A DNA stretch of 21,506 bases from a virus: the IMG/VR virus record IMGVR_UViG_3300032177_000081, positions 1-21,506 of that record, one strand, 5' to 3'. Shown one piece after another: positions 5,826 to 16,242 of the stretch. Within the stretch, counting starts at the first letter, position 1, and the number at the start of each line of letters is the position of its first letter. The translations under genes and the position numbers were made by a program. Below the pieces are notes generated by a model that saw nothing but the letters and a program-made list of their open reading frames with translations, did not search any database and was not told the DNA's origin.

Positions 5826-6530
5826 ATGGACTGGGATATATTTGTTTTTGAAGACTTTATTGTTACCGAGGACATTGCGCTTGATCTGATCCTTGAAATA
5901 AGCGTCAGTGACGACGTGTCGATCTTTGAGATAGGAGAGATCCGGTCTTTTGCCTATATCAATGATCCGGTTTTGGTAGAGGAAAGCGTTGAGATTTATT
6001 TAGAAGTATTAAATATTGAGGTTAGCGACGATATAACATATGAAGATATTGTCCTGGGGATCGAGCAAGATACTATCCAGGTTTTTGCATATGAAGATAT
6101 TTTGGTCCAGGAAGACGTTGAGCGCAATAAAGATAATGAGTGCGAATTATCAGACTCTTTATATGTAAATGAATTTGTAAATATAGCGCCGGCAATATAT
6201 TTTTTAAGTGTATCGGAAGACATAAATATATCAGAATATTATTTTAGTCTTTCTATCTGTTATTTTGAAGAATACGATCCAGTATTTATTCAAGACGTTG
6301 TGGAATTAACAGTCGGGCGCGCAGTGTTTGCGTCCAGGTTAATCACAGTAACAGAATATCTTAATATAGCGCGTGAAATACTTTACGTAGACGTTAATAA
6401 CAGTGTCTCAATAGTTGAATACACAATACTCGGCAGGAGCGAAGAACCTATGATAGCGATAACTAATATTTCGGTTGCGGAAGTTGTGAGCCTGGAAACA
6501 GCAGTGGATCTCGCCTTTAATGATTTTTTA
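5826..6530 (+). repeat. loose 20-residue coding repeats, tail-tip gene 1
   Basis: The first 235 residues of this gene product repeat a short pattern, for example SDDVSIFEI, SDDITYEDI, SDSLYVNEFV, EDINISEYYF and RLITVTEYLN, spaced at about 20 residues or multiples of it. The pattern alternates hydrophobic and polar residues, as in extended beta hairpins. The DNA copies have diverged far and show no long exact repeats. Confidence 0.6.
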
Positions 6531-6851
6531 AGGAGTTACCCATTCCAGGAAGAAACGATCACGAATGTTGTGGTAGAAGTTTTTGAAAATGGAGCAGAAC
6601 AGCGCAGGGATAAATGGGGAAGGACACGCAAGAGATTTCAAGTTAATTTTGCTCCGAGGTCGAAAGACGAAATTGATCAGATCAAGGCGTTTTTTGTGTC
6701 ACGTAGAGGGCCGGCAAATGCGTTTGATTTTGTTAATCCATTGGACAATATAGATTATGTCGTCCGGTTTGAAGAAAATAGTCTTAAAATCGCCAGGGTT
6801 GCGTTCGGTATTTATTCTGCCTCGGTGAACATAGTTGAGGTATTTATATAA
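5826..6851 (+). CDS. tail-tip protein: N-terminal beta-repeat region fused to a gpM/DUF2460-like domain
   Basis: A 341-residue protein in the lambda gpM position, just after the tape measure. About residues 245-341 look like a gpM/DUF2460-type distal tail domain. They contain a 'G.EQR.dkW' motif (GAEQRRDKWGRTRKRFQV), then 'eidqIkaFF..r.G...aFdf.nP', and a final 'vrFeE...ki' strand series. Classical gpM is only about 110 residues. Here about 235 residues precede it, very acidic and built from loose units of about 20 residues of the form D-x-I-x-V-x-E-x-V-x-I. The same unit fills the gene at 8106. The start is the ATG one base after the tape measure stop, with AAAAAGGT upstream. The domain call is moderate; the repeat is directly visible. 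Confidence 0.65.
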   Translation: MDWDIFVFEDFIVTEDIALDLILEISVSDDVSIFEIGEIRSFAYINDPVLVEESVEIYLEVLNIEVSDDITYEDIVLGIEQDTIQVFAYEDILVQEDVERNKDNECELSDSLYVNEFVNIAPAIYFLSVSEDINISEYYFSLSICYFEEYDPVFIQDVVELTVGRAVFASRLITVTEYLNIAREILYVDVNNSVSIVEYTILGRSEEPMIAITNISVAEVVSLETAVDLAFNDFLRSYPFQEETITNVVVEVFENGAEQRRDKWGRTRKRFQVNFAPRSKDEIDQIKAFFVSRRGPANAFDFVNPLDNIDYVVRFEENSLKIARVAFGIYSASVNIVEVFI

Positions 6852-7471
6852 TGAGAATTGTTGGAAACGCTTTTAATACAGGGAAAAATTCGCCAGTAGT
6901 TAGGCCTATTTATCTCTATTCTATTTTATACGATCCGACTGCAAATTCTTTTTTAAGAATGACTAATTGGCCAGGCGGTGTAACGTTTGACGGAGTCTTT
7001 TATAAGCATTATGCAGTAATTCATAGCGGTATAAACGAGGAAGCGTCCGGAATGATACAAAAAGCAAGCATTACGCTATCAAATGCGAACCGTGAAATGC
7101 AAGCGCTCCTGGACGACAACGAGGGCCTGCGCGAGCGCAAGGTAACGATCACGCAAGTTTGGGAAGATACTTTGGCAGATCCGACAGCGTTCATATCTGA
7201 TATTTTGACAGTGGAGCAAGCAAGCGTTACAGAAGAAAGAGTGACATTATCATTAGCCTCGGAGTTGGACGTCCTAAATATTATGTTACCGCGCAGAGTT
7301 ATGACGAGGACATTCTGCCGGTTTACATTTAAGAGCGCCGAGTGCGCCTATGCAGGAAGCGAGCAGTCTTGTAACAAAACATTTAACAGGTGTCGCGAGT
7401 TAGTAAATCAAAAACATTTTGGAGCATTTCCGGCGACGCCTTTGACGAAGACGTATTTGAGAGGGATATAA
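6851..7471 (+). CDS. gpL-like minor tail-tip protein with four cysteines
   Basis: A 206-residue protein. The N-terminal half has strands like TFDGVFYKHYAVIHSGI, matching '.v.fdG..Y.p.pi..sg' of the lambda gpL/DUF2163 group. The C-terminal part has four cysteines (C156, C165, C174, C181) in the context R-x-F-C-R-F-T-F-K-S-x-E-C-x-Y-x-G, ending with FGAFP. In lambda gpL a C-terminal domain with four cysteines binds an iron-sulphur cluster, so the same is expected here but not shown. The start overlaps the previous stop (TAATG), and the next gene overlaps this stop in the same way. gpK- and gpI-like genes, which follow gpL in lambda, are not present. Confidence 0.7.
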   Translation: MRIVGNAFNTGKNSPVVRPIYLYSILYDPTANSFLRMTNWPGGVTFDGVFYKHYAVIHSGINEEASGMIQKASITLSNANREMQALLDDNEGLRERKVTITQVWEDTLADPTAFISDILTVEQASVTEERVTLSLASELDVLNIMLPRRVMTRTFCRFTFKSAECAYAGSEQSCNKTFNRCRELVNQKHFGAFPATPLTKTYLRGI

Positions 7472-8106
7472 TGTATTCTCGTTTCGTAACCTGGCAGAGA
7501 AGTCAGAATGTGTCCGGATATGTGGAGAGCGCGGACGTTAATCAGTTTATAATTAACGACGATCTCCTGGACGTTAGGTTTTCATTGAAGGGTTACGGAT
7601 TTAAGAAGATCGGCGAGCAAAACAGGATCGTCCACCATTTCGGTTGTTATAAATGTTACTACCGAAAATATGGAGAAACGGACTGGAATTTATTTGCGCA
7701 CGTTGCTTGTGAGAGAAATTCGTCAGAAGCGCCGACAGTATATAAAGACGTTTTTGTAAGCAGTGGAGTATTACCGCAGGCGAAATACGAAGTTAAGATC
7801 GTGGCCTGCCGGTTAGTAGAATTAGAAAATTGGACCGGTGGAATAGTAGAAGGGATCGCAAGCGGTGATCGCTTTCATTATGGGATAGAAGCGCGACAGA
7901 ACGTCCCTTTGAAAGTAAAAGCAACGGACAATATTATCATTGAGTCAGATTTTTTATTCGGACTCGATCCTATGGACCTTTCAACAGGCCAGGCTTACGA
8001 GGATATAACATACGCGGTAGATTTAGCGATCGCAGAAGTAGAGATCGGCCTGGACGTGGTTGAATTTATGATCGTTGAAGATACCGTAAATGCGCAAAGA
8101 CAATAA
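7471..8106 (+). CDS. tail-tip protein, short paralogue (GCYKCYY domain)
   Basis: A 211-residue protein that I cannot assign to a named family. The first 155 or so residues are beta-rich with a conserved FGCYKCYYRK segment (about residues 52-61) and a later CRLVELENW. The whole region aligns with the N-terminus of the next gene product. The remaining 50 residues contain one or two units of the 20-residue repeat (EDITYAVDLAIAEV). The start was put at 7471 (MYSRFVTW) and not at the in-frame ATG at 7390. It forms a TAATG overlap with the gpL-like gene, has GAGAGGG upstream, and matches the start of the paralogue (MYSRFVIW). It probably sits on the tail tip. Confidence 0.65.
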   Translation: MYSRFVTWQRSQNVSGYVESADVNQFIINDDLLDVRFSLKGYGFKKIGEQNRIVHHFGCYKCYYRKYGETDWNLFAHVACERNSSEAPTVYKDVFVSSGVLPQAKYEVKIVACRLVELENWTGGIVEGIASGDRFHYGIEARQNVPLKVKATDNIIIESDFLFGLDPMDLSTGQAYEDITYAVDLAIAEVEIGLDVVEFMIVEDTVNAQRQ

Positions 8107-10472
8107 TGTATTCACGATTTGTTATATGGCAAAACGATCCGATCATAGAAGCGCAAGCGGAGATCAACGAATACAACGTATTCCGCGTGCAGGAGAAGTG
8201 TCTTGACATACGATTTATCCTTAAAGGATACGGTTTCAAAAAAGTTGGAGAAATTAACCGCGCGATCTACCATTTCGGTTGCTACAAATGCTATTACAAA
8301 AAAGTCGGTGATCCGCAATGGCAAATGTTCGCGCACGTTGTATCGGACCGCGCCGGAGTATCAGAGGCAACAGTCTATAAAGACGTCATTGTGTCAACCG
8401 GCGTCCTCGAATATGGGACATATGAGATTAAAGTTGAAGCGTGCAGACTTGTTGAATTATCGAATTGGCCGACCGGAGTCGTCGAAGGGATCGCGTCCGG
8501 AGATCAATTCTATTATGACGTCTCGGCCAGGACACAAGCGCCGAATAAAGTCAGCAAGATCGAGGAAATTGATGTATCAGAATTTTTTTATGCCGGCCTC
8601 GATCCGATCTTCCTCGAAGTCATTGATCCGGAAGAATATTCGCTTGACGGCGTCCAGGCCATTGACATTGCCTATATGGTCTTGGAGCATAACATTTATG
8701 GGATATGGGAAGACATACCAGTCAATGAAGTCCTCACAATTCAATACGACTACGACTTATATATTACGCCCGACGTTGTCATTGTCACAGACGGAAGCGC
8801 GCAATATCTTAATAGACTGCACGTCACACCTGCAAATTTCGGAGATCGAGTATATGTTAATGAATACAGATCTCTTACTTTTACGCCATTTTATTCTTAC
8901 TGGTTTCAACAGATCTTTGTTAATGAATGGGCCTTTGGAAATATTTATGGGACGTGCCAAAACTGGGATACGATCGCAGTCAGAGAAAATGCAGACGTTA
9001 ATATTTATGGTTGTCGGCAGGTCTTTGATACTGTCGACGTTGGAGAAAGAATTACTGTTAATATCCCAGGCCTCGTATTTGATAATGTCGACGTCCGAGA
9101 AAATATATTTGTCAACGTATTCGGATCGCGCCTTGTATTCGAGGAAATTCCTATTGAAGAATTTGTCGCAGTCAACGTGTTTGGAAGCAGACTCGTCTAT
9201 GAGACAATATTCGCCCAGGAAGTTATCGACGTCCATATACCCTGGAATAGATTATCCTGGGAGATTATTTTCTTATCAGAATATATCAGCGTTAATATTC
9301 CATTCGCGCGCTCGGTGTCAGACGAAATTCTCACTTGGGATATTGCCTTTGTGTTTATGTATTACCAGGCCTTTGTCTCCGAAAAAGTTTCAACGTCAGA
9401 AAATATACAAGTCCATATTCCATTCTCACGTATTGTCTTTGATCCTATCGCTGTCCTCGAATATGTATCTGTTAATAGGGCCGGCGTTGTTGAAGTCTTC
9501 CAGGATATATCCGTCAACGAATTTGCCTCGCTTAATGTTATCCGGACGATCCAGGTCTTTGAGCAGATCGAGGCTATGGACGTCCTTTATATCAATATCG
9601 ACAGAACGATCCAGGTTAGCGATATTATTCACGCAGACGAATTTGTCACGATCGCATTTCAAGCGATTAAGGTCCTATCCGTTTCCGACTCTATCACAGT
9701 CAATGAATACGTCGCCTATAAAGTTTATGGGACATTCTCTGTTGACGACGATATATTCGTTAATGAATTTGTTAAGATCTCCGTATTGTCAATATCGGCC
9801 GTGCAAAATATTACCGTTTCCGAATTTGTCCTTGTATCAGTTCCTAATTTGTCGAATTTCGATACCGTTACAATTACAGAGTCAGTTACTGTCCGGCCGA
9901 TTATCAGCATTGACGTATTTGAGAGTATTGCAATTGTTGAAAATCTATCGGCAGTCCTTATTAAACTTGTCAATGTATACGACACCATTACGGTTACAGA
10001 ATTTGCGACGAATTTCTATCCAGTCCTGGGCCTGTCCGTTTATGATTACCCAGGAATTGCGAATGACTGGGCCTGGTATAAAGTCTATGGGACATTCTCT
10101 GTCTATGAGTCGATTAACGTCCAGTCAGTCTATTCAACGCTTGAATTACGAAGTTACGTCGACGTATCCGATACAATTATCGTCAACGAAAACGTTATGC
10201 TTGAAACGATCATTGCGATCGTTGAGGTTACTGGCGACGACAGCGCGTTTGTCAACGGTGCATTGGTCGATTACATTACAGTCGTCGAAGAAGCCGTCAG
10301 TTTCGATATTTATTATGTCGTCGAAGCAGTTGCATACGAGACAATTGTTTCGACTGAAAGTATTATTGTGGCAGTGTTACTCGGTTTTGATCTCGGAGAC
10401 AGTGTCGGTGTAAGTGGAGCATTATTTGATACTATTAGCGTCACAGAGTTTATCAACGTGATAAGGATATAA
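8106..10472 (+). CDS. tail-tip fibre protein, long paralogue with about 25 twenty-residue repeats
   Basis: A 788-residue protein. Residues 1-160 are a paralogue of the preceding gene product (MYSRFVIW, LKGYGFKKVGEINR, FGCYKCYYKK, VEGIASGD). A linker follows, and from about residue 268 to the end the chain is a tandem array of units close to 20 residues. The pattern is [DE]-x-I-x-V-x-E-x-[VI]-x-V-N-x(6)-V-[FYS]. This suggests an extended beta-solenoid or stacked beta-hairpin shaft. The start overlaps the previous stop (TAATG). Codon choice differs from the short paralogue: Val GTA and Leu TTA before purine-starting codons are avoided, so the +1 frame stays open for 2.2 kb. The function is probably a side or central fibre. 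No known fibre family was recognised. Confidence 0.7.
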   Translation: MYSRFVIWQNDPIIEAQAEINEYNVFRVQEKCLDIRFILKGYGFKKVGEINRAIYHFGCYKCYYKKVGDPQWQMFAHVVSDRAGVSEATVYKDVIVSTGVLEYGTYEIKVEACRLVELSNWPTGVVEGIASGDQFYYDVSARTQAPNKVSKIEEIDVSEFFYAGLDPIFLEVIDPEEYSLDGVQAIDIAYMVLEHNIYGIWEDIPVNEVLTIQYDYDLYITPDVVIVTDGSAQYLNRLHVTPANFGDRVYVNEYRSLTFTPFYSYWFQQIFVNEWAFGNIYGTCQNWDTIAVRENADVNIYGCRQVFDTVDVGERITVNIPGLVFDNVDVRENIFVNVFGSRLVFEEIPIEEFVAVNVFGSRLVYETIFAQEVIDVHIPWNRLSWEIIFLSEYISVNIPFARSVSDEILTWDIAFVFMYYQAFVSEKVSTSENIQVHIPFSRIVFDPIAVLEYVSVNRAGVVEVFQDISVNEFASLNVIRTIQVFEQIEAMDVLYINIDRTIQVSDIIHADEFVTIAFQAIKVLSVSDSITVNEYVAYKVYGTFSVDDDIFVNEFVKISVLSISAVQNITVSEFVLVSVPNLSNFDTVTITESVTVRPIISIDVFESIAIVENLSAVLIKLVNVYDTITVTEFATNFYPVLGLSVYDYPGIANDWAWYKVYGTFSVYESINVQSVYSTLELRSYVDVSDTIIVNENVMLETIIAIVEVTGDDSAFVNGALVDYITVVEEAVSFDIYYVVEAVAYETIVSTESIIVAVLLGFDLGDSVGVSGALFDTISVTEFINVIRI
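8907..10469 (+). repeat. tandem 20-residue coding repeats, tail-tip gene 4
   Basis: About 521 codons divide into some 25 full units plus two shortened ones. Examples are DTVDVGERITVNIPGLVF, DNVDVRENIFVNVFGSRLVF, EEIPIEEFVAVNVFGSRLVY and DSITVNEYVAYKVYGTFSVD. Period 20 is held for many units in a row. At DNA level most units have diverged, but a few blocks are nearly identical, such as the 23-base block near 9720 that recurs near 10080 with one change. Confidence 0.8.
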
Positions 10473-10473
10473 A

Positions 10474-13400
10474 ATGGCAGAACAAGACAATACAGAATAC
10501 GGTTTACTCGGAATAGGGATCAATGATCCGGTAACAGAGATCCTTCCGGTTATTGACGCCTCATTGACTCCGAACGCCGAAGTCGATATGGACGAATTAC
10601 CGACATATCACTGGAACGGCGCGACAATGAAGCAGAAGATCGGGGACGTCCTTCCGATCGTTTACGGCCGGCACGCATTAGCGCCGACATTGATAAATGC
10701 CTATATTGAAGAAGGCGAACACGAAACATTAAATCTTCTCCTGGCCTGGTGCGAGGGAGAGATCGAGAGTATTACGAATATAAAAATCGGTGGAAACCCG
10801 ATCGAGAGTTTTTTCCATTCAGATCCGAACGATCCTTATGGCGAAAGCGCGGAGTTAAGCGTCCGGACTGGAAAGATAGAGCAGGAAGAAATACAGCACT
10901 TTGACGAATTGCATACTATTACGCCAGTATCGCAGGTGCTATTAAAAGGCATACCGTATCAAATGATCGGGACGATCAGCACGTGCAGAGCGATCCGCGT
11001 TGAATTATCAATTGATAAACTTTACGAAATAGACGCTATAACAGGAAATAATTTATCCTGGTATTTTGCGGTTGAAGTTAAGTTGCGAAAAGTCGGCGAG
11101 GGCGCATTTAGGACGCTCGGAATAATCGAAACGAATAAAAAGACCACGACAGTTTTCAAAAGATATTTCAAGACGGAATATTTAGAAGCCGGACAGTATG
11201 AAGTTATAATCACAAAAGTTTCGGACGATCAAGACGAAGGAGAAAATCCTGTCCATTTAGGAGAGGTAACGCTTGTCTCGATCGACGAAATTACGACCGA
11301 ACAATTAAGTTATCCGACAGTCGCATTGACTGGGATTAGAGTCCTGGCCTTCCAGGATCTTCAAGGAAGCATACCGAATATAACAGGAATTATTACCGGT
11401 CGAAAGGTTAGGTGTCCGAAAGTTACGTTTGACATTGGTGGCACGGACGTTGTTGACTGGGAACAATATTATTATGACGGATCAGATTTTAGACGCCTGG
11501 GAAACGACGCGCTTTTATACTGGGACGGATCGACATATATTGATCAATGGTGCGCGAACCCTGTTTGGTGTTTACGCGATCTTCTTACAAATAAACGCTA
11601 TGGCCTGGGCGATTATATTCCGGAGTCAAAAGTTGACGCCGGATCTTTCTTTGCCTCTGCTATGTATTGCGAGGAAGCGGTTAATAATGACGAGGGAAAT
11701 AAGGAAAAGCGATTTAGACTCGACTGCGTCCTGGACAGCGCAAGTCCGGCCACAGACGTTATCGGATCTATTATAAAATCATTTCGTGGAATTATTTATA
11801 TGAGCGAAGGCGTGATCAGAGTCAATGTTGAAAAACAGGAGACTCCGAAGGCCGTATTTAATATGGGAAATATCGTTGCAGGAAGTTTTGCACTGCAATA
11901 TCAAGGAAAGAAAAAGCCGAATGTTATATCGGCCCAGTATACAAATAAAGATAAAAGTTATATGCGCGAAAGTGTTGAGATCGCGTCCTCGGAGCAGGAA
12001 TTGCGAGACGTAGTTGCCTCGACGCAGTCCGTTCAATGGTATGGAGTTACCAGGTTGACGCAGGTGTTAAGAGAGTCGCGTATTTTATTAAATAAAATAA
12101 ATAATAATACGAAAGTAATTCATTTTAAGGCCTATTTCGACTCGGTCCTATTGCAACCGTATGACGTTTTCGGATTTCAGCACGACGTGCCTGGTTGGGG
12201 AAGCGGTGGCCGGATCACAGAATTTTCCTCGACCTTGAATGTCCGGTTAGATACTCCGGTTGTTTTAGATCCTGGGAGCGCTTATACACTTACAGTCCGA
12301 AACGCGATCACAGACGCGCTCGAAACACGGAACATTTCAAATATTCCTGGCGTGTATACGTCCCTTGACGTGGCCACGCCTTTTTCTTTTATACCGCAAG
12401 AAAACGACCTTTGGAGTTTAAGCACGGTCGGCGCTAATACCGGAACGCAATTATATAGAATAACGAATATCAGTAAAAAAGAAGAAGGGGACATAGATTT
12501 TTCTGCGGTTGAATACACAGACGATATTTATGATCCGTCAGTGATTATCATTCCGCAGGATAAATATAGTCACCTTATCCTGGACATTCCAAAGGTGCAA
12601 AATCTTAAACTTGAAGAAGCGCATAATAAGTTACCTTCCGGAAATTATGAAAATAAGATCCAGGTATCATTTCAAATAGCGCCAGTTACCGCAAAATATA
12701 TTAAGCAGGCAACGCGTTACGAAATATGGCTATCTGATAATGAAGGCGCGTCCTGGAATATGGTTGGATCAACGGACCGCGAGTATATGACGATCGCGGA
12801 AATGGTAAGTGTCGGGGTATTATATAGAGTCGCGGTTGTTTCAGTTACGGAGAGCGGAGAAAAAAATCCTATCGCTACCAGTCCGCAACAGACGATCTCA
12901 ATTCAAGGGATCACGACAGCACCGAGCAAGGTTGTTAATTTTCAATATACTTTTACGGACGAGATTTCATTGACTTGGGACAAAAATCCCGAAGCAGACA
13001 TTGTCGGATATGAGATCCGGACAAATAATTTTAGTTGGTTATCTGATACCGAGGGCCTGGTATGGCGCGGAGACGCGAGTAAGTTTATTATCGTCCGGCC
13101 GACAGCACGCCAGGGTGTCACTTATTATATTCGAGCGTATAATCAGCAGGGGATCGTATCGTCAGAAGGGACGTCAATAGAGCCTGTAAATCCCAGGCCT
13201 AACGCACCGTCACTTTTCGCTGTTACATTGTTTCAAAAGGTCTTTTTATCCTGGCTACCGGTAAATGACGCAGACATAGTGGAATATGAAATATGGCAGA
13301 ATACAGAGCCTGTATTTTTCGGAGTAGAGCGTCAAGAGGACGAGCGCTTATATGCGCGGATCAAGGCAACAAATTTTGTGGCCGAAGTTCCTTATCAAAT

Positions 13401-15120
13401 GACATATTATAGAATTTGCGCCGTAGATCGTTTTGGACGCGGAGCATTTTCAAATATAGTCTCGGCCGAGAGATTAGATATTGAGTCACAAGACATAGGC
13501 CTTAATGCGATCCTATCCACAAATATTGACGACGAAGCAATAAGCACTCCTAAATTAAGAGCCGGAGCGATTACAACAGAGAAGATCGCCACAAAAGCAG
13601 TCGTGGCAAATAATATTGACGTGGCCCAGTTGTCCGCGATCTCCGCAGACCTGGGAACGATCAGATCCGGAGAGATCATAGGCGCATTGATAAAAACGTC
13701 TAACGATCCATTCCGCGTTGAAATGGATAGTTTTGGTTTAAGATCTTACGATATGCAGGGCCGGAAGACAGTCGAATTATCACAAGGAAATTTACGTCTT
13801 TATAATCCCGAAGCACCGGAGTATTATTCTTCACTCGATAGCGGTGGCCTGGTATTTAATACGCCATATGGATCGACTCCTTATGCAACAAGACTTTGCG
13901 CCGGAGTTGCTACGGCCGGTCAAAAAGTTTGTCTTTCTAAATGGAGCAGTAAGCCGGAAGTAATTTTAGGGATCAAGCGCTTACAGTCTTATAATTCGGG
14001 CCGGCCGGAGTCGTCCCAGGAGTGGTGCGTTTATTCTGATAATCTTCAATATTATGATTTTGGATCGGGGAATTTCGGTTGGTCCTTTGACGTTCGCGCA
14101 AAATTAGTTATTACCGGTGGCACAAGAATTGAACAATATTTTGACGTTCCTTTCGGGACGTCTCGTTGCACTGGAAGCGGTGTTTGTCAAGTCCAGGTAG
14201 GCGCTTGCGTTCAAGTATGGTGTCACCAGGTTGCGCCCGATCCGATCTGCTATGCGTGTATTTGTTATGAGATCGCATATCGTCAAGTTGGTGCAGGAAG
14301 TTGGACCAGGGCCTGTTATGAATGGTTATCGCCTCACGATACGATCGGCGCGATTAAACAGACATATAAACTTTGTCATACGGTGGCCCTGGGAGCAATG
14401 GGACAATGGGAAGTTACGATCAATGAACGTGGTCGGCATTATGTGGCCTCGCCATTTCAGACAGGCGGTTATATTACCGTAATTTGTTGCACGCCGTATA
14501 CTATTGATCAGTCGTGTTGCGGTGTTGCTTATGTGTCCGGACGGTTTGGTGGATCTATAAGCGCGATAAGTCCAGGGACAAATAGAAGCGCAAGCGCGTC
14601 GCAAGACGTTTATGTAGATTTTGCAGATTATGGAAGGGCAGATCTTGTTGTTTTAAGTAGCGCCATAACGAATTGCGCCTATGGGACAGTTTTAGCAAGA
14701 ATAACAGCGCAGACGTCACGTGCGAACGCGGACGTAGCCGGATTATTCGGCGGTGGAATATCAAAGAGCGGAGATTTTTATTCGGCCTGGCAAGCGACAG
14801 GTTGTTGGACAGCGACAAAACAATTTGCAAGTTATCAGACGAGAGTCCTCGGATTTAGATTAAGCGCTTATGCCTCGGACGGATATATTTCCGGTTATAC
14901 CTGCGCCCTGGCCAGTGTTAGCGGTAGTTCAGTGCAGGTTGTTAATTATAAATGTTGTATCGTAAGGACGTGTTATACCTGCACTCCGTGCTGTCTATTT
15001 GTCGGAAGCGCGTGCAATGCAGATATAAGACTATTTTCGTCAATGAGAGATATTGTTGGAAATGAAGTCGTCCTCGATCCGGCAGGAGAAATAAATTATT
15101 TAGCGGTAGCATATCGGTAA
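10474..15120 (+). CDS. gpJ-like tail tip / host-specificity protein
   Basis: A 1548-residue protein expected to form the tip of the tail and contact the receptor. Residues about 45-115 carry the tail-J signature (WNGATMKQKIGDVLPIVYGR, then LLLAWCEGEIESI). About 300-640 continues the gpJ core. Three FN3-like domains follow at about 707-805, 812-905 and 910-1000 (motifs LTWDKNPEADIVGYEI and FLSWLPVNDADIVEYEIW). About 1005-1070 is the 'AIST.KLRAGAITTEKI' type linker seen in central fibre proteins. From about 1140 to the end the protein holds 26 cysteines in some 400 residues, including three CC pairs in the last third and dense clusters, against about eight in the first 1000. The start follows an AAGGA that lies in the end of the preceding gene. 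Confidence 0.88.
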   Translation: MAEQDNTEYGLLGIGINDPVTEILPVIDASLTPNAEVDMDELPTYHWNGATMKQKIGDVLPIVYGRHALAPTLINAYIEEGEHETLNLLLAWCEGEIESITNIKIGGNPIESFFHSDPNDPYGESAELSVRTGKIEQEEIQHFDELHTITPVSQVLLKGIPYQMIGTISTCRAIRVELSIDKLYEIDAITGNNLSWYFAVEVKLRKVGEGAFRTLGIIETNKKTTTVFKRYFKTEYLEAGQYEVIITKVSDDQDEGENPVHLGEVTLVSIDEITTEQLSYPTVALTGIRVLAFQDLQGSIPNITGIITGRKVRCPKVTFDIGGTDVVDWEQYYYDGSDFRRLGNDALLYWDGSTYIDQWCANPVWCLRDLLTNKRYGLGDYIPESKVDAGSFFASAMYCEEAVNNDEGNKEKRFRLDCVLDSASPATDVIGSIIKSFRGIIYMSEGVIRVNVEKQETPKAVFNMGNIVAGSFALQYQGKKKPNVISAQYTNKDKSYMRESVEIASSEQELRDVVASTQSVQWYGVTRLTQVLRESRILLNKINNNTKVIHFKAYFDSVLLQPYDVFGFQHDVPGWGSGGRITEFSSTLNVRLDTPVVLDPGSAYTLTVRNAITDALETRNISNIPGVYTSLDVATPFSFIPQENDLWSLSTVGANTGTQLYRITNISKKEEGDIDFSAVEYTDDIYDPSVIIIPQDKYSHLILDIPKVQNLKLEEAHNKLPSGNYENKIQVSFQIAPVTAKYIKQATRYEIWLSDNEGASWNMVGSTDREYMTIAEMVSVGVLYRVAVVSVTESGEKNPIATSPQQTISIQGITTAPSKVVNFQYTFTDEISLTWDKNPEADIVGYEIRTNNFSWLSDTEGLVWRGDASKFIIVRPTARQGVTYYIRAYNQQGIVSSEGTSIEPVNPRPNAPSLFAVTLFQKVFLSWLPVNDADIVEYEIWQNTEPVFFGVERQEDERLYARIKATNFVAEVPYQMTYYRICAVDRFGRGAFSNIVSAERLDIESQDIGLNAILSTNIDDEAISTPKLRAGAITTEKIATKAVVANNIDVAQLSAISADLGTIRSGEIIGALIKTSNDPFRVEMDSFGLRSYDMQGRKTVELSQGNLRLYNPEAPEYYSSLDSGGLVFNTPYGSTPYATRLCAGVATAGQKVCLSKWSSKPEVILGIKRLQSYNSGRPESSQEWCVYSDNLQYYDFGSGNFGWSFDVRAKLVITGGTRIEQYFDVPFGTSRCTGSGVCQVQVGACVQVWCHQVAPDPICYACICYEIAYRQVGAGSWTRACYEWLSPHDTIGAIKQTYKLCHTVALGAMGQWEVTINERGRHYVASPFQTGGYITVICCTPYTIDQSCCGVAYVSGRFGGSISAISPGTNRSASASQDVYVDFADYGRADLVVLSSAITNCAYGTVLARITAQTSRANADVAGLFGGGISKSGDFYSAWQATGCWTATKQFASYQTRVLGFRLSAYASDGYISGYTCALASVSGSSVQVVNYKCCIVRTCYTCTPCCLFVGSACNADIRLFSSMRDIVGNEVVLDPAGEINYLAVAYR

Positions 15121-15141: not shown

Positions 15142-16242
15142 ATGTTGAATATGAATAAGAAAGTAGCAGAGGAAGCAGAGGTCCTGGTCCTGGTTGTCAA
15201 TGGTGGAATTGGCAGGAATATTATGGCGACAGCAGTCGTGCGGAATTTGAAAAAAGCATATCCGGATAAAAAAATCGTGGTGATGTGTGGAGTGCCGGAG
15301 ATCTTTTTGAAAAATCCAAATATTTATCGGGTGTATTCGTTAGCGAACCCTGTTTATTTTTACGAAGACTTTATCAAAAACAGGAAGTCGGCGGTCCTCA
15401 ATGTTGAACCGTATCAGCATTATGACTATACATATAAATCAAGACATTTCGTCCAGTGTTGGTGCGAAATGCTTAACATAGAGTGCGACAGCGTGTATCC
15501 GGAAATGTTTTTTACTGAAATGGAAAATAAACTGGCCGAAAATTTTGTTAAACTTTTTGATCGGCCTTTTGTCCTTTGTCAATTTGAAGGTGGAAAAATA
15601 CCGGAAGGGAAAGACGAAAAAAATAGGATCATTGCGCGCAATGCAATGTATCGTCGATCTTTACCGGAGCAGTTGCAGGTTAAAATCGTAGACGAATTAA
15701 ATACAATGGGATTTAAGGTTGGAGTTGTGGCGCACGAAAACGTTTATATTCCTGGTTGTTGCGACAGAATATTTTATCCGACCAGGGCCGTGATCGCGCT
15801 CTCCCAGTATGCAACGGCAATGATCGTTATTGATAGTTTCCTATTGCACGGATCAGCAGTGTTTCAGAAGCCGGCCCTGGCCTTGTGGTCCGGAACGAGT
15901 CCGGAGCAATTAGGATATGACTGTCACGTAAACCTGCGGAATAAAGTTTGTGATACTCCGGAATGTCATAGGCCTAATAGTTATTTTTTTGACATTGAGC
16001 CTAACGGTTATCAATGGGAATGTTCTCATAATAATAAATGTTGTGATTATGAGCCGAAGACAGTTATTGAAGCGTTCGATCAAATGACAGGTGGATTACG
16101 TGGACAGATAAAGGCGATCGGTGCGCCGTTGCCGGTGTTACCGGACGGATTTAATCCTTATGATAAAAAGGAATGTCCGGACTGCGATAAACACTCAAAA
16201 GAAAAAAATGCAGAGAAGACTCCGGTAGAAATAAAAATTTGA
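15142..16242 (+). CDS. GT9-family glycosyltransferase (ADP-heptose:LPS heptosyltransferase-like)
   Basis: A 366-residue soluble enzyme. The N-terminal motif NGGIGRNIMATAVVRNLKKA with YPDKKIVV matches the 'GgiGd...tt..lr.lk..yP...i' start of GT9 enzymes, which transfer heptose from ADP-heptose to the LPS core. The usual Asp after GIG is replaced by Arg here. In the C-terminal half ALSQYATAMIVIDSFLLHGS followed by KPALALWSGTSPEQLGY is the nucleotide-sugar site pattern ('a..d..lHlAaa...p.v.lfG.t.p'). The last 100 residues are cysteine-rich (CDTPECH, ECSHNNKCC, CPDCDK), which is not usual for LPS enzymes. A strong ribosome binding site (AAAGGAGA) precedes it. It may modify host surface glycans or a phage structural protein. 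Confidence 0.75.
   Translation: MLNMNKKVAEEAEVLVLVVNGGIGRNIMATAVVRNLKKAYPDKKIVVMCGVPEIFLKNPNIYRVYSLANPVYFYEDFIKNRKSAVLNVEPYQHYDYTYKSRHFVQCWCEMLNIECDSVYPEMFFTEMENKLAENFVKLFDRPFVLCQFEGGKIPEGKDEKNRIIARNAMYRRSLPEQLQVKIVDELNTMGFKVGVVAHENVYIPGCCDRIFYPTRAVIALSQYATAMIVIDSFLLHGSAVFQKPALALWSGTSPEQLGYDCHVNLRNKVCDTPECHRPNSYFFDIEPNGYQWECSHNNKCCDYEPKTVIEAFDQMTGGLRGQIKAIGAPLPVLPDGFNPYDKKECPDCDKHSKEKNAEKTPVEIKI

Follow-up and report, generated by a model that had tools for sequence, protein, structure and literature searches.

Two genes in the tail module of a phage share an acidic repeat of about 20 residues, which belongs to a family that appears, from sequence searches, to be undescribed so far. The DNA analysed here (the window) is the 21,506-nucleotide IMG/VR virus record IMGVR_UViG_3300032177_000081. 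Its tail module is lambda-like and, with genes named by their start positions, runs in the order of tape measure (2969), distal-tail gene (5826), gpL-like gene (6851), 7471, 8106 and gpJ-like gene (10474). The repeat fills most of gene 8106 and the N-terminal part of gene 5826, and it recurs on several kinds of virion genes in many other uncultivated phages. Such a family would offer a handle for annotating very long hypothetical phage proteins.

The longer array is in gene 8106, which encodes 788 residues. BLOSUM autocorrelation over residues 185-788 gives z = 10 at a lag of 20 and z = 5 at a lag of 40. Using a position-specific scoring matrix (PSSM), 24 units were located at residues 198-738, mostly exactly 20 apart, and shuffles of the same composition contain 1.7 units on average and 5 at most. 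The original prediction from this DNA had the repeat filling about 520 residues of the gene with about 25 units, which is borne out almost to the unit. The array is old and divergent, because pairs of its units average 23% identity in amino acids and 40% in nucleotides, and because Tandem Repeats Finder detects nothing in it. Both arrays of the window are acidic (net charge -59 and -45, isoelectric point (pI) 4.05).

When gene 5826 is taken alone, its lag-20 autocorrelation is not significant, and the profile derived from 8106 yields just 6 weak units. A profile retrained on other phages, with gene 5826 excluded from the training set, finds 11 contiguous units spaced by 18-22 residues in the first 235 residues, where units had been predicted; shuffles of this segment give a mean of 0.83 and a maximum of 5 (n=1000). 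The orthologue in the closest relative (locus L003) has 8 units (shuffles, mean 0.43, maximum 3). One or two units had also been expected at the end of gene 7471, but none scores above threshold there with the retrained PSSM; the L003 orthologue has one, at residue 149. The proposed spread over three genes around the gpL-like gene is supported for the two flanking genes, 5826 and 8106, and not for 7471.

By sequence, the repeat matches no entry of Pfam, PHROG, NCBIfam or PDB, in agreement with the earlier statement that no described family has this period and motif. It is likewise unmatched when 58 repeat-bearing open reading frames (ORFs) of relatives are compared with Pfam. In cultured phages, tblastn with gene 8106 and the arrays of four relatives returned no repeat match, where the low-complexity filter may hide some; two weak matches, H3 and H4, were inspected and have no array. 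A literature search on the motif strings or on a 20-residue phage fibre repeat turned up nothing.

Relatives were collected by scanning IMG/VR with two DNA patterns, one spanning two units and a stricter one spanning three, followed by a profile check; the stricter pattern also served to scan 257 Gb of genomes from bacteria and archaea. After the profile check, 77 viral loci have a repeat ORF. Removal of redundancy leaves 75 viral ORFs, about 7 of which are simple-repeat false positives by eye (L011, L015, L112), so that about 68 relatives are counted, a lower bound that varies with the pattern chosen and comes from contigs that are fragments. Among 72 stretches from cellular genomes, 8 loci pass; one (L270) is a clear member adjoining a gene that resembles a tape-measure protein, two are variants from archaea, and simple repeats make up the remainder.

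The consensus of 621 units is [IV]-[SN]-V-[SFY]-D-[ST]-[IV]-[TS]-[IV]-[ST]-E, and unit spacing over the family is 20 (559 cases), 21 (292) or 22 (128). The motif first proposed is approximately right, as the strongest positions are D/E at 5 (acidic in 93% of units), I/V at 7 and 9 (hydrophobic in 94-95%) and D/E at 11 (acidic in 94%). Positions 6, 8 and 10 are mostly Ser or Thr. Thaumarchaeal repeats with the DSVSxSES motif (L213 and L242; LSDSVSxSES-type) resemble the phage unit in their period of 20 and D-S-V-S-x-S-type core, but they are rich in Ser, Thr and Lys, and homology is not established. Arg-rich 20-residue arrays of similar spacing (RVVDEsI.VaEtv), present in L016, L074, L103, L113, L149, L152, L185, L194, L199 and L203, may be a separate, non-homologous family.

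The repeat is not limited to the tail tip, because in relatives it also occurs in giant proteins with lectin domains and just ahead of the head-tail adaptor. In the closest relative, contig G001 (45.6 kb, loci L003 and L004), the window's gene order is kept with an 8106 orthologue of 1070 residues (L003:7259-10468). This contig has four repeat genes (2407, 1100, 322 and 1085 residues, about 4,900 codons together), two of which are flanked by the head genes on one side and the head-tail adaptor on the other. In L004, L048, L025, L091, L168, L175 and L189, a member of the head-tail adaptor family (phrog_442) immediately follows a repeat ORF. The repeats precede DUF2460 in L003, L291 and the window, and they follow a DUF2460-like domain in L048, whose tail tip is arranged otherwise and has no long array. 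Pfam domains in other members are Laminin_G_3 (3 members; ConA-like), kelch, LVIVD, Gly-rich and beta-helix, and a ConA-like stretch, read by eye, apparently lies inside the array of the 8106 orthologue in L291.

Judging from these sequences, the repeat looks to be a promiscuous module across virion genes, not a tail-tip speciality. The initial idea of a modular shaft or collar at the tail tip is therefore kept as to modularity and sharing between two genes, and given up as to place, since the unit also occurs far from the tail tip in relatives. Phage Ig-like domains are a comparable case, as a promiscuous surface module found on several unrelated virion proteins (PMC5009743; Hoc in PMC10385173). 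The 20-residue repeat is similarly spread over unrelated virion proteins, but it is not an Ig fold, no Ig profile matches it in Pfam and PHROG searches, and addition by frameshifting is not shown for it. Two further observations concern G001. Its 2407-residue gene (L285, G001 18388-25608), upstream of the head-tail adaptor, has 36 units with several LamG/ConA-like stretches between arrays by eye. Residues about 250-430 of the L003 orthologue of 8106 form a charged, probably coiled-coil insertion that is not in the window gene.

Residues 262-541 of 8106 were modelled with AlphaFold2 using 33 aligned stretches. The model has 26 strands, two per unit, with a predicted local distance difference test score (pLDDT) of 69.8 and a predicted template modelling score (pTM) of 0.62. 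Regular 20-residue rungs, the outcome to which the original prediction had looked for support, are present in this monomer model. The viral structures closest to it belong to uncharacterized proteins from uncultured phages (A0A6J5PBZ6, template modelling (TM) score 0.77). Should the units stack, their acidic residues would line up as ladders and probably require cations or protonation, which makes for a testable, perhaps cation-dependent, fold.

We favor, with reasonable though limited confidence, that the unit is a modular acidic beta-structured shaft repeat on several virion proteins, forming solenoid-like rods that act as spacers for a binding or assembly surface. Each unit would give two short strands, and the strands would stack into a long solenoid-like rod. 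In the window phage, the distal-tail (gpM/DUF2460-like) protein would bear one rod, and the protein encoded between gpL and gpJ would bear another, longer one. Array length would change as units are gained and lost. By analogy with evolved distal-tail (Dit) proteins and with the lectin-like partners in relatives, the rods would most likely serve to distance a surface for binding or assembly from the tail tip. In evolved Dit, the distal-tail protein is enlarged by modules that aid adsorption (PMC10688798). Gene 5826 likewise encodes an enlarged distal-tail protein, but in this repeat family the addition is an array fused N- or C-terminal to the DUF2460-type domain instead of an inserted carbohydrate-binding module (CBM), and no CBM match was found in gene 5826 by Pfam and PHROG searches.

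Several points weigh against the spacer rods. The pLDDT of the array model is only about 70, the alignment used for folding pooled units of many phages in arbitrary unit register, and a monomer prediction does not separate a solenoid from an intertwined trimer. Foldseek of the array model against PDB gave no significant match. The virion placement of both proteins is read from gene positions alone, and the N-terminal domain of 8106, beginning with MYSRF, reached a pLDDT of 46 in AlphaFold2 and no confident identity. The 8106 protein of the window itself shows no binding domain, so a role in adsorption is argued by analogy.

Most fibre shafts of phages and viruses are trimeric. The array could accordingly be an intertwined trimeric fibre, comparable to the triple beta-spiral of adenovirus and reovirus shafts, instead of a monomeric solenoid, and the moderate confidence of the AlphaFold2 monomer model would fit this. 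We consider it unlikely, as regular rungs already form in the monomer model and no G or P is conserved at the turns. The triple beta-spiral has a unit of about 15 residues with a conserved Gly/Pro turn, whereas the phage unit is 20-22 residues long with no G/P-rich position. The top PDB match, CsgA curli (E = 0.09, TM 0.29), is a single-chain solenoid, though all PDB matches are weak and the next ones, mostly parallel beta-helices, include some trimeric tailspikes.

Alternatively, the arrays could be assembly or docking elements, in which units of 5826 and 8106 stack end to end or side by side and cement the tail tip and the distal tail ring together, instead of projecting a surface for receptor binding. 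Two genes around the gpL-like gene bear the same unit, the motif spacing and the weak fold match recall curlin, and curli subunits dock via open edges (PMC10192328). Curlin (CsgA, PF07012) has a short two-strand unit of about 20-23 residues, comparable to the two strands per unit predicted here, and its core motif N-x-psi-x-psi-x-Q (PMC10192328) shares the spacing [N/D]-x-psi-x-psi-x-[Q/E]. The phage motif D-x-[IV]-x-[IV]-x-E is flanked by D/E, not N/Q, lies in virion genes, and occurs once per unit (D 5, E 11), whereas curlin has two copies; the Pfam curlin model has no match in the window, L003 or the 58 repeat ORFs. Docking is rather improbable, because the unit also neighbors ConA-like, kelch and propeller domains and occurs in genes remote from the tail tip, where tail-tip glue would be superfluous, and because the differently arranged tail tip of L048 does without a long array. 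Low-complexity drift, with the units as convergent simple V/T/S/D repeats lacking a common function, is suggested by a few pattern-scan matches that are plainly simple repeats (PSITTTP type; L011, L112), but is very hard to sustain, as the 8106 units have diverged to 23% identity yet mostly keep D/E at 5 and 11, viral over cellular enrichment is strong, and synteny and orthology are conserved.

Gene 8106 is also unusual in its +1 frame. Codons 15-768 contain no +1 stop, against 23.3 +/- 3.0 (minimum 14) in 400 synonymous shuffles with amino acids and codon usage held fixed. Observed and expected numbers are 0/8.7 for TAA, 0/10.5 for TAG and 0/4.1 for TGA, and TAT is enriched (26 vs 8.5). In the L003 orthologue, the +1 frame is open for 687 codons (L003:8397-10460); once codons 1-47 and the insertion particular to this gene are set aside, stops number 0 vs 24.4, and the insertion has a normal number (12 vs 12.7). 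Whole-gene counts are fairer because stops themselves set the end points of open stretches, and these are 4 vs 27.6 in the window (z = -6.9) and 18 vs 38.5 in L003 (z = -6.0). After codons ending in TA, the next letter is A or G in 0/32 cases in the window gene and 0/21 in L003, compared with 64/106 in the gpJ-like gene and 62/86 in the tape measure.

When shuffles were restricted to unit columns, the window gene still has 0 stops vs 12.1 (codons 191-767) and 16.5 are expected in L003, which rules out inherited codon choice per unit position as the cause. In 8106, stop numbers are normal in the +2 frame and in all three frames of the opposite strand. They are also normal in the +1 frames of the paralogous domain in 7471, the other G001 repeat genes and control genes, so open +1 frames are not general to repeat genes. 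Among 584 long ORFs screened, the window 8106 and its L003 orthologue stand out. The open frame is no relic of recent descent, because, across most of the alignment of the two, identical residues share their third position in just about 20-50% of cases, and synonymous sites are saturated. A third orthologue, in L291, has no depletion (33 vs 31.9), and the dual-frame signal comes from two orthologues.

The chances are about even that both the window phage and L003 use 8106 for dual coding. Through internal initiation or frameshifting, the +1 frame, readable for about 700 codons, would then yield another protein, rich in Ser and Leu and strongly basic (pI about 11), with selection on the absence of stops and not on the second sequence. 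The +1 amino acids have no clear excess of similarity over stop-free synonymous shuffles, either between units or between phages, and the product has no match in Pfam or cultured phages. To our knowledge, a same-strand overlap of such length is unusual for a double-stranded DNA phage; if translated, it would be a striking case of dual coding that is directly testable.

Candidate +1 starts follow Shine-Dalgarno-like sequences at TTG 8203 (736 residues, the best) and ATG 8854 (519 residues) in the window, and at ATG 8400 and 8532 in L003, which are not clearly homologous to the window starts. Phages do add domains to structural proteins by frameshifting, +1 included (PMC5009743). Each gene has a single T-run of at least six, at codons 160-163, the homologous position where the N-terminal domain ends (window 8583-8589, L003:7741-7746). 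This is a possible slippage site, but slippage there fails to explain the long open stretch, because in L003 a +1 shift would run into a stop at codon 295. As a recoding signal, 5' RNA folding is inconsistent (z = -0.2 and -3.9 in the two genes). Separately, in the Arg-rich array of L194, the +2 frame is open for 685 codons, with 1 stop vs 8.8.

Features of the window are collected in the table below. Gene 5826 (341 residues) is recognized as a DUF2460/TIGR02217 distal-tail protein by PF09343 (E=3.3e-12; 46.7 bits, cutoff 30.4), and it scores under the cutoff of TIGR02217 (E=1.2e-9; 38 bits, cutoff 136.65). Genes 7471 and 8106 both start with MYSRF, and their first ~150 residues are paralogous, with 53-57% identity over the four copies of the window and L003. 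This domain resembles gpJ FNIII-A at no more than a suggestive level. The order of tape measure, distal-tail, gpL-like and J-like genes is that of lambda gpM-gpL-gpK-gpI-gpJ, but no gpK- or gpI-like gene lies between L and J in the window, where the two MYSRF-domain paralogues are found instead.

Table. Features of the tail module in the window, in order of position
Feature	Position	Strand	Evidence
11 repeat units, residues 5-228, N-terminal part of distal-tail gene 5826-6851	5838..6509	+	Retrained PSSM; pI 4.05
DUF2460 / TIGR02217-like distal-tail domain, residues 236-341 of gene 5826	6531..6848	+	PF09343, TIGR02217
gpL-like tail-tip gene, 0 repeat units	6851..7471	+	PF05100 Phage_tail_L E=1.1e-13
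Gene of 211 residues, first ~150 paralogous to 8106 N-terminus, 0 units above threshold	7471..8106	+	Identity, PSSM
Residues 1-159 of gene 8106, N-terminal domain and proposed anchor, possibly FN3-like	8106..8582	+	Paralogy; weak gpJ FNIII-A match; low-confidence beta model
Overlapping +1 frame, 754 codons open	8149..10413	+	No stop; 23.3 +/- 3.0 expected from synonymous shuffling
Array of gene 8106, residues 198-738, 24 units of 20 residues	8697..10319	+	Autocorrelation, PSSM, AlphaFold2 model of 262-541
gpJ-like central tail fibre gene, directly 3' of 8106, 0 units	10474..15120	+	phrog_31 E=5.5e-123

Other observations concern neighboring genes. A 366-residue gene at 15142-16242 has a weak match, below cutoff, to glycosyltransferase family 9 (heptosyltransferase-like). 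The C-terminal part of the gpJ-like protein (13834-15117) looks unusually Cys-rich, with 34 Cys in the whole protein. Two consecutive, nearly identical genes at 1055-1630 and 1661-2182 are of a major-tail-protein-like or Ig-domain family; phrog_2175 matches the first, and the pair is also duplicated in L003 (275, 890) and L291 (997, 1605).

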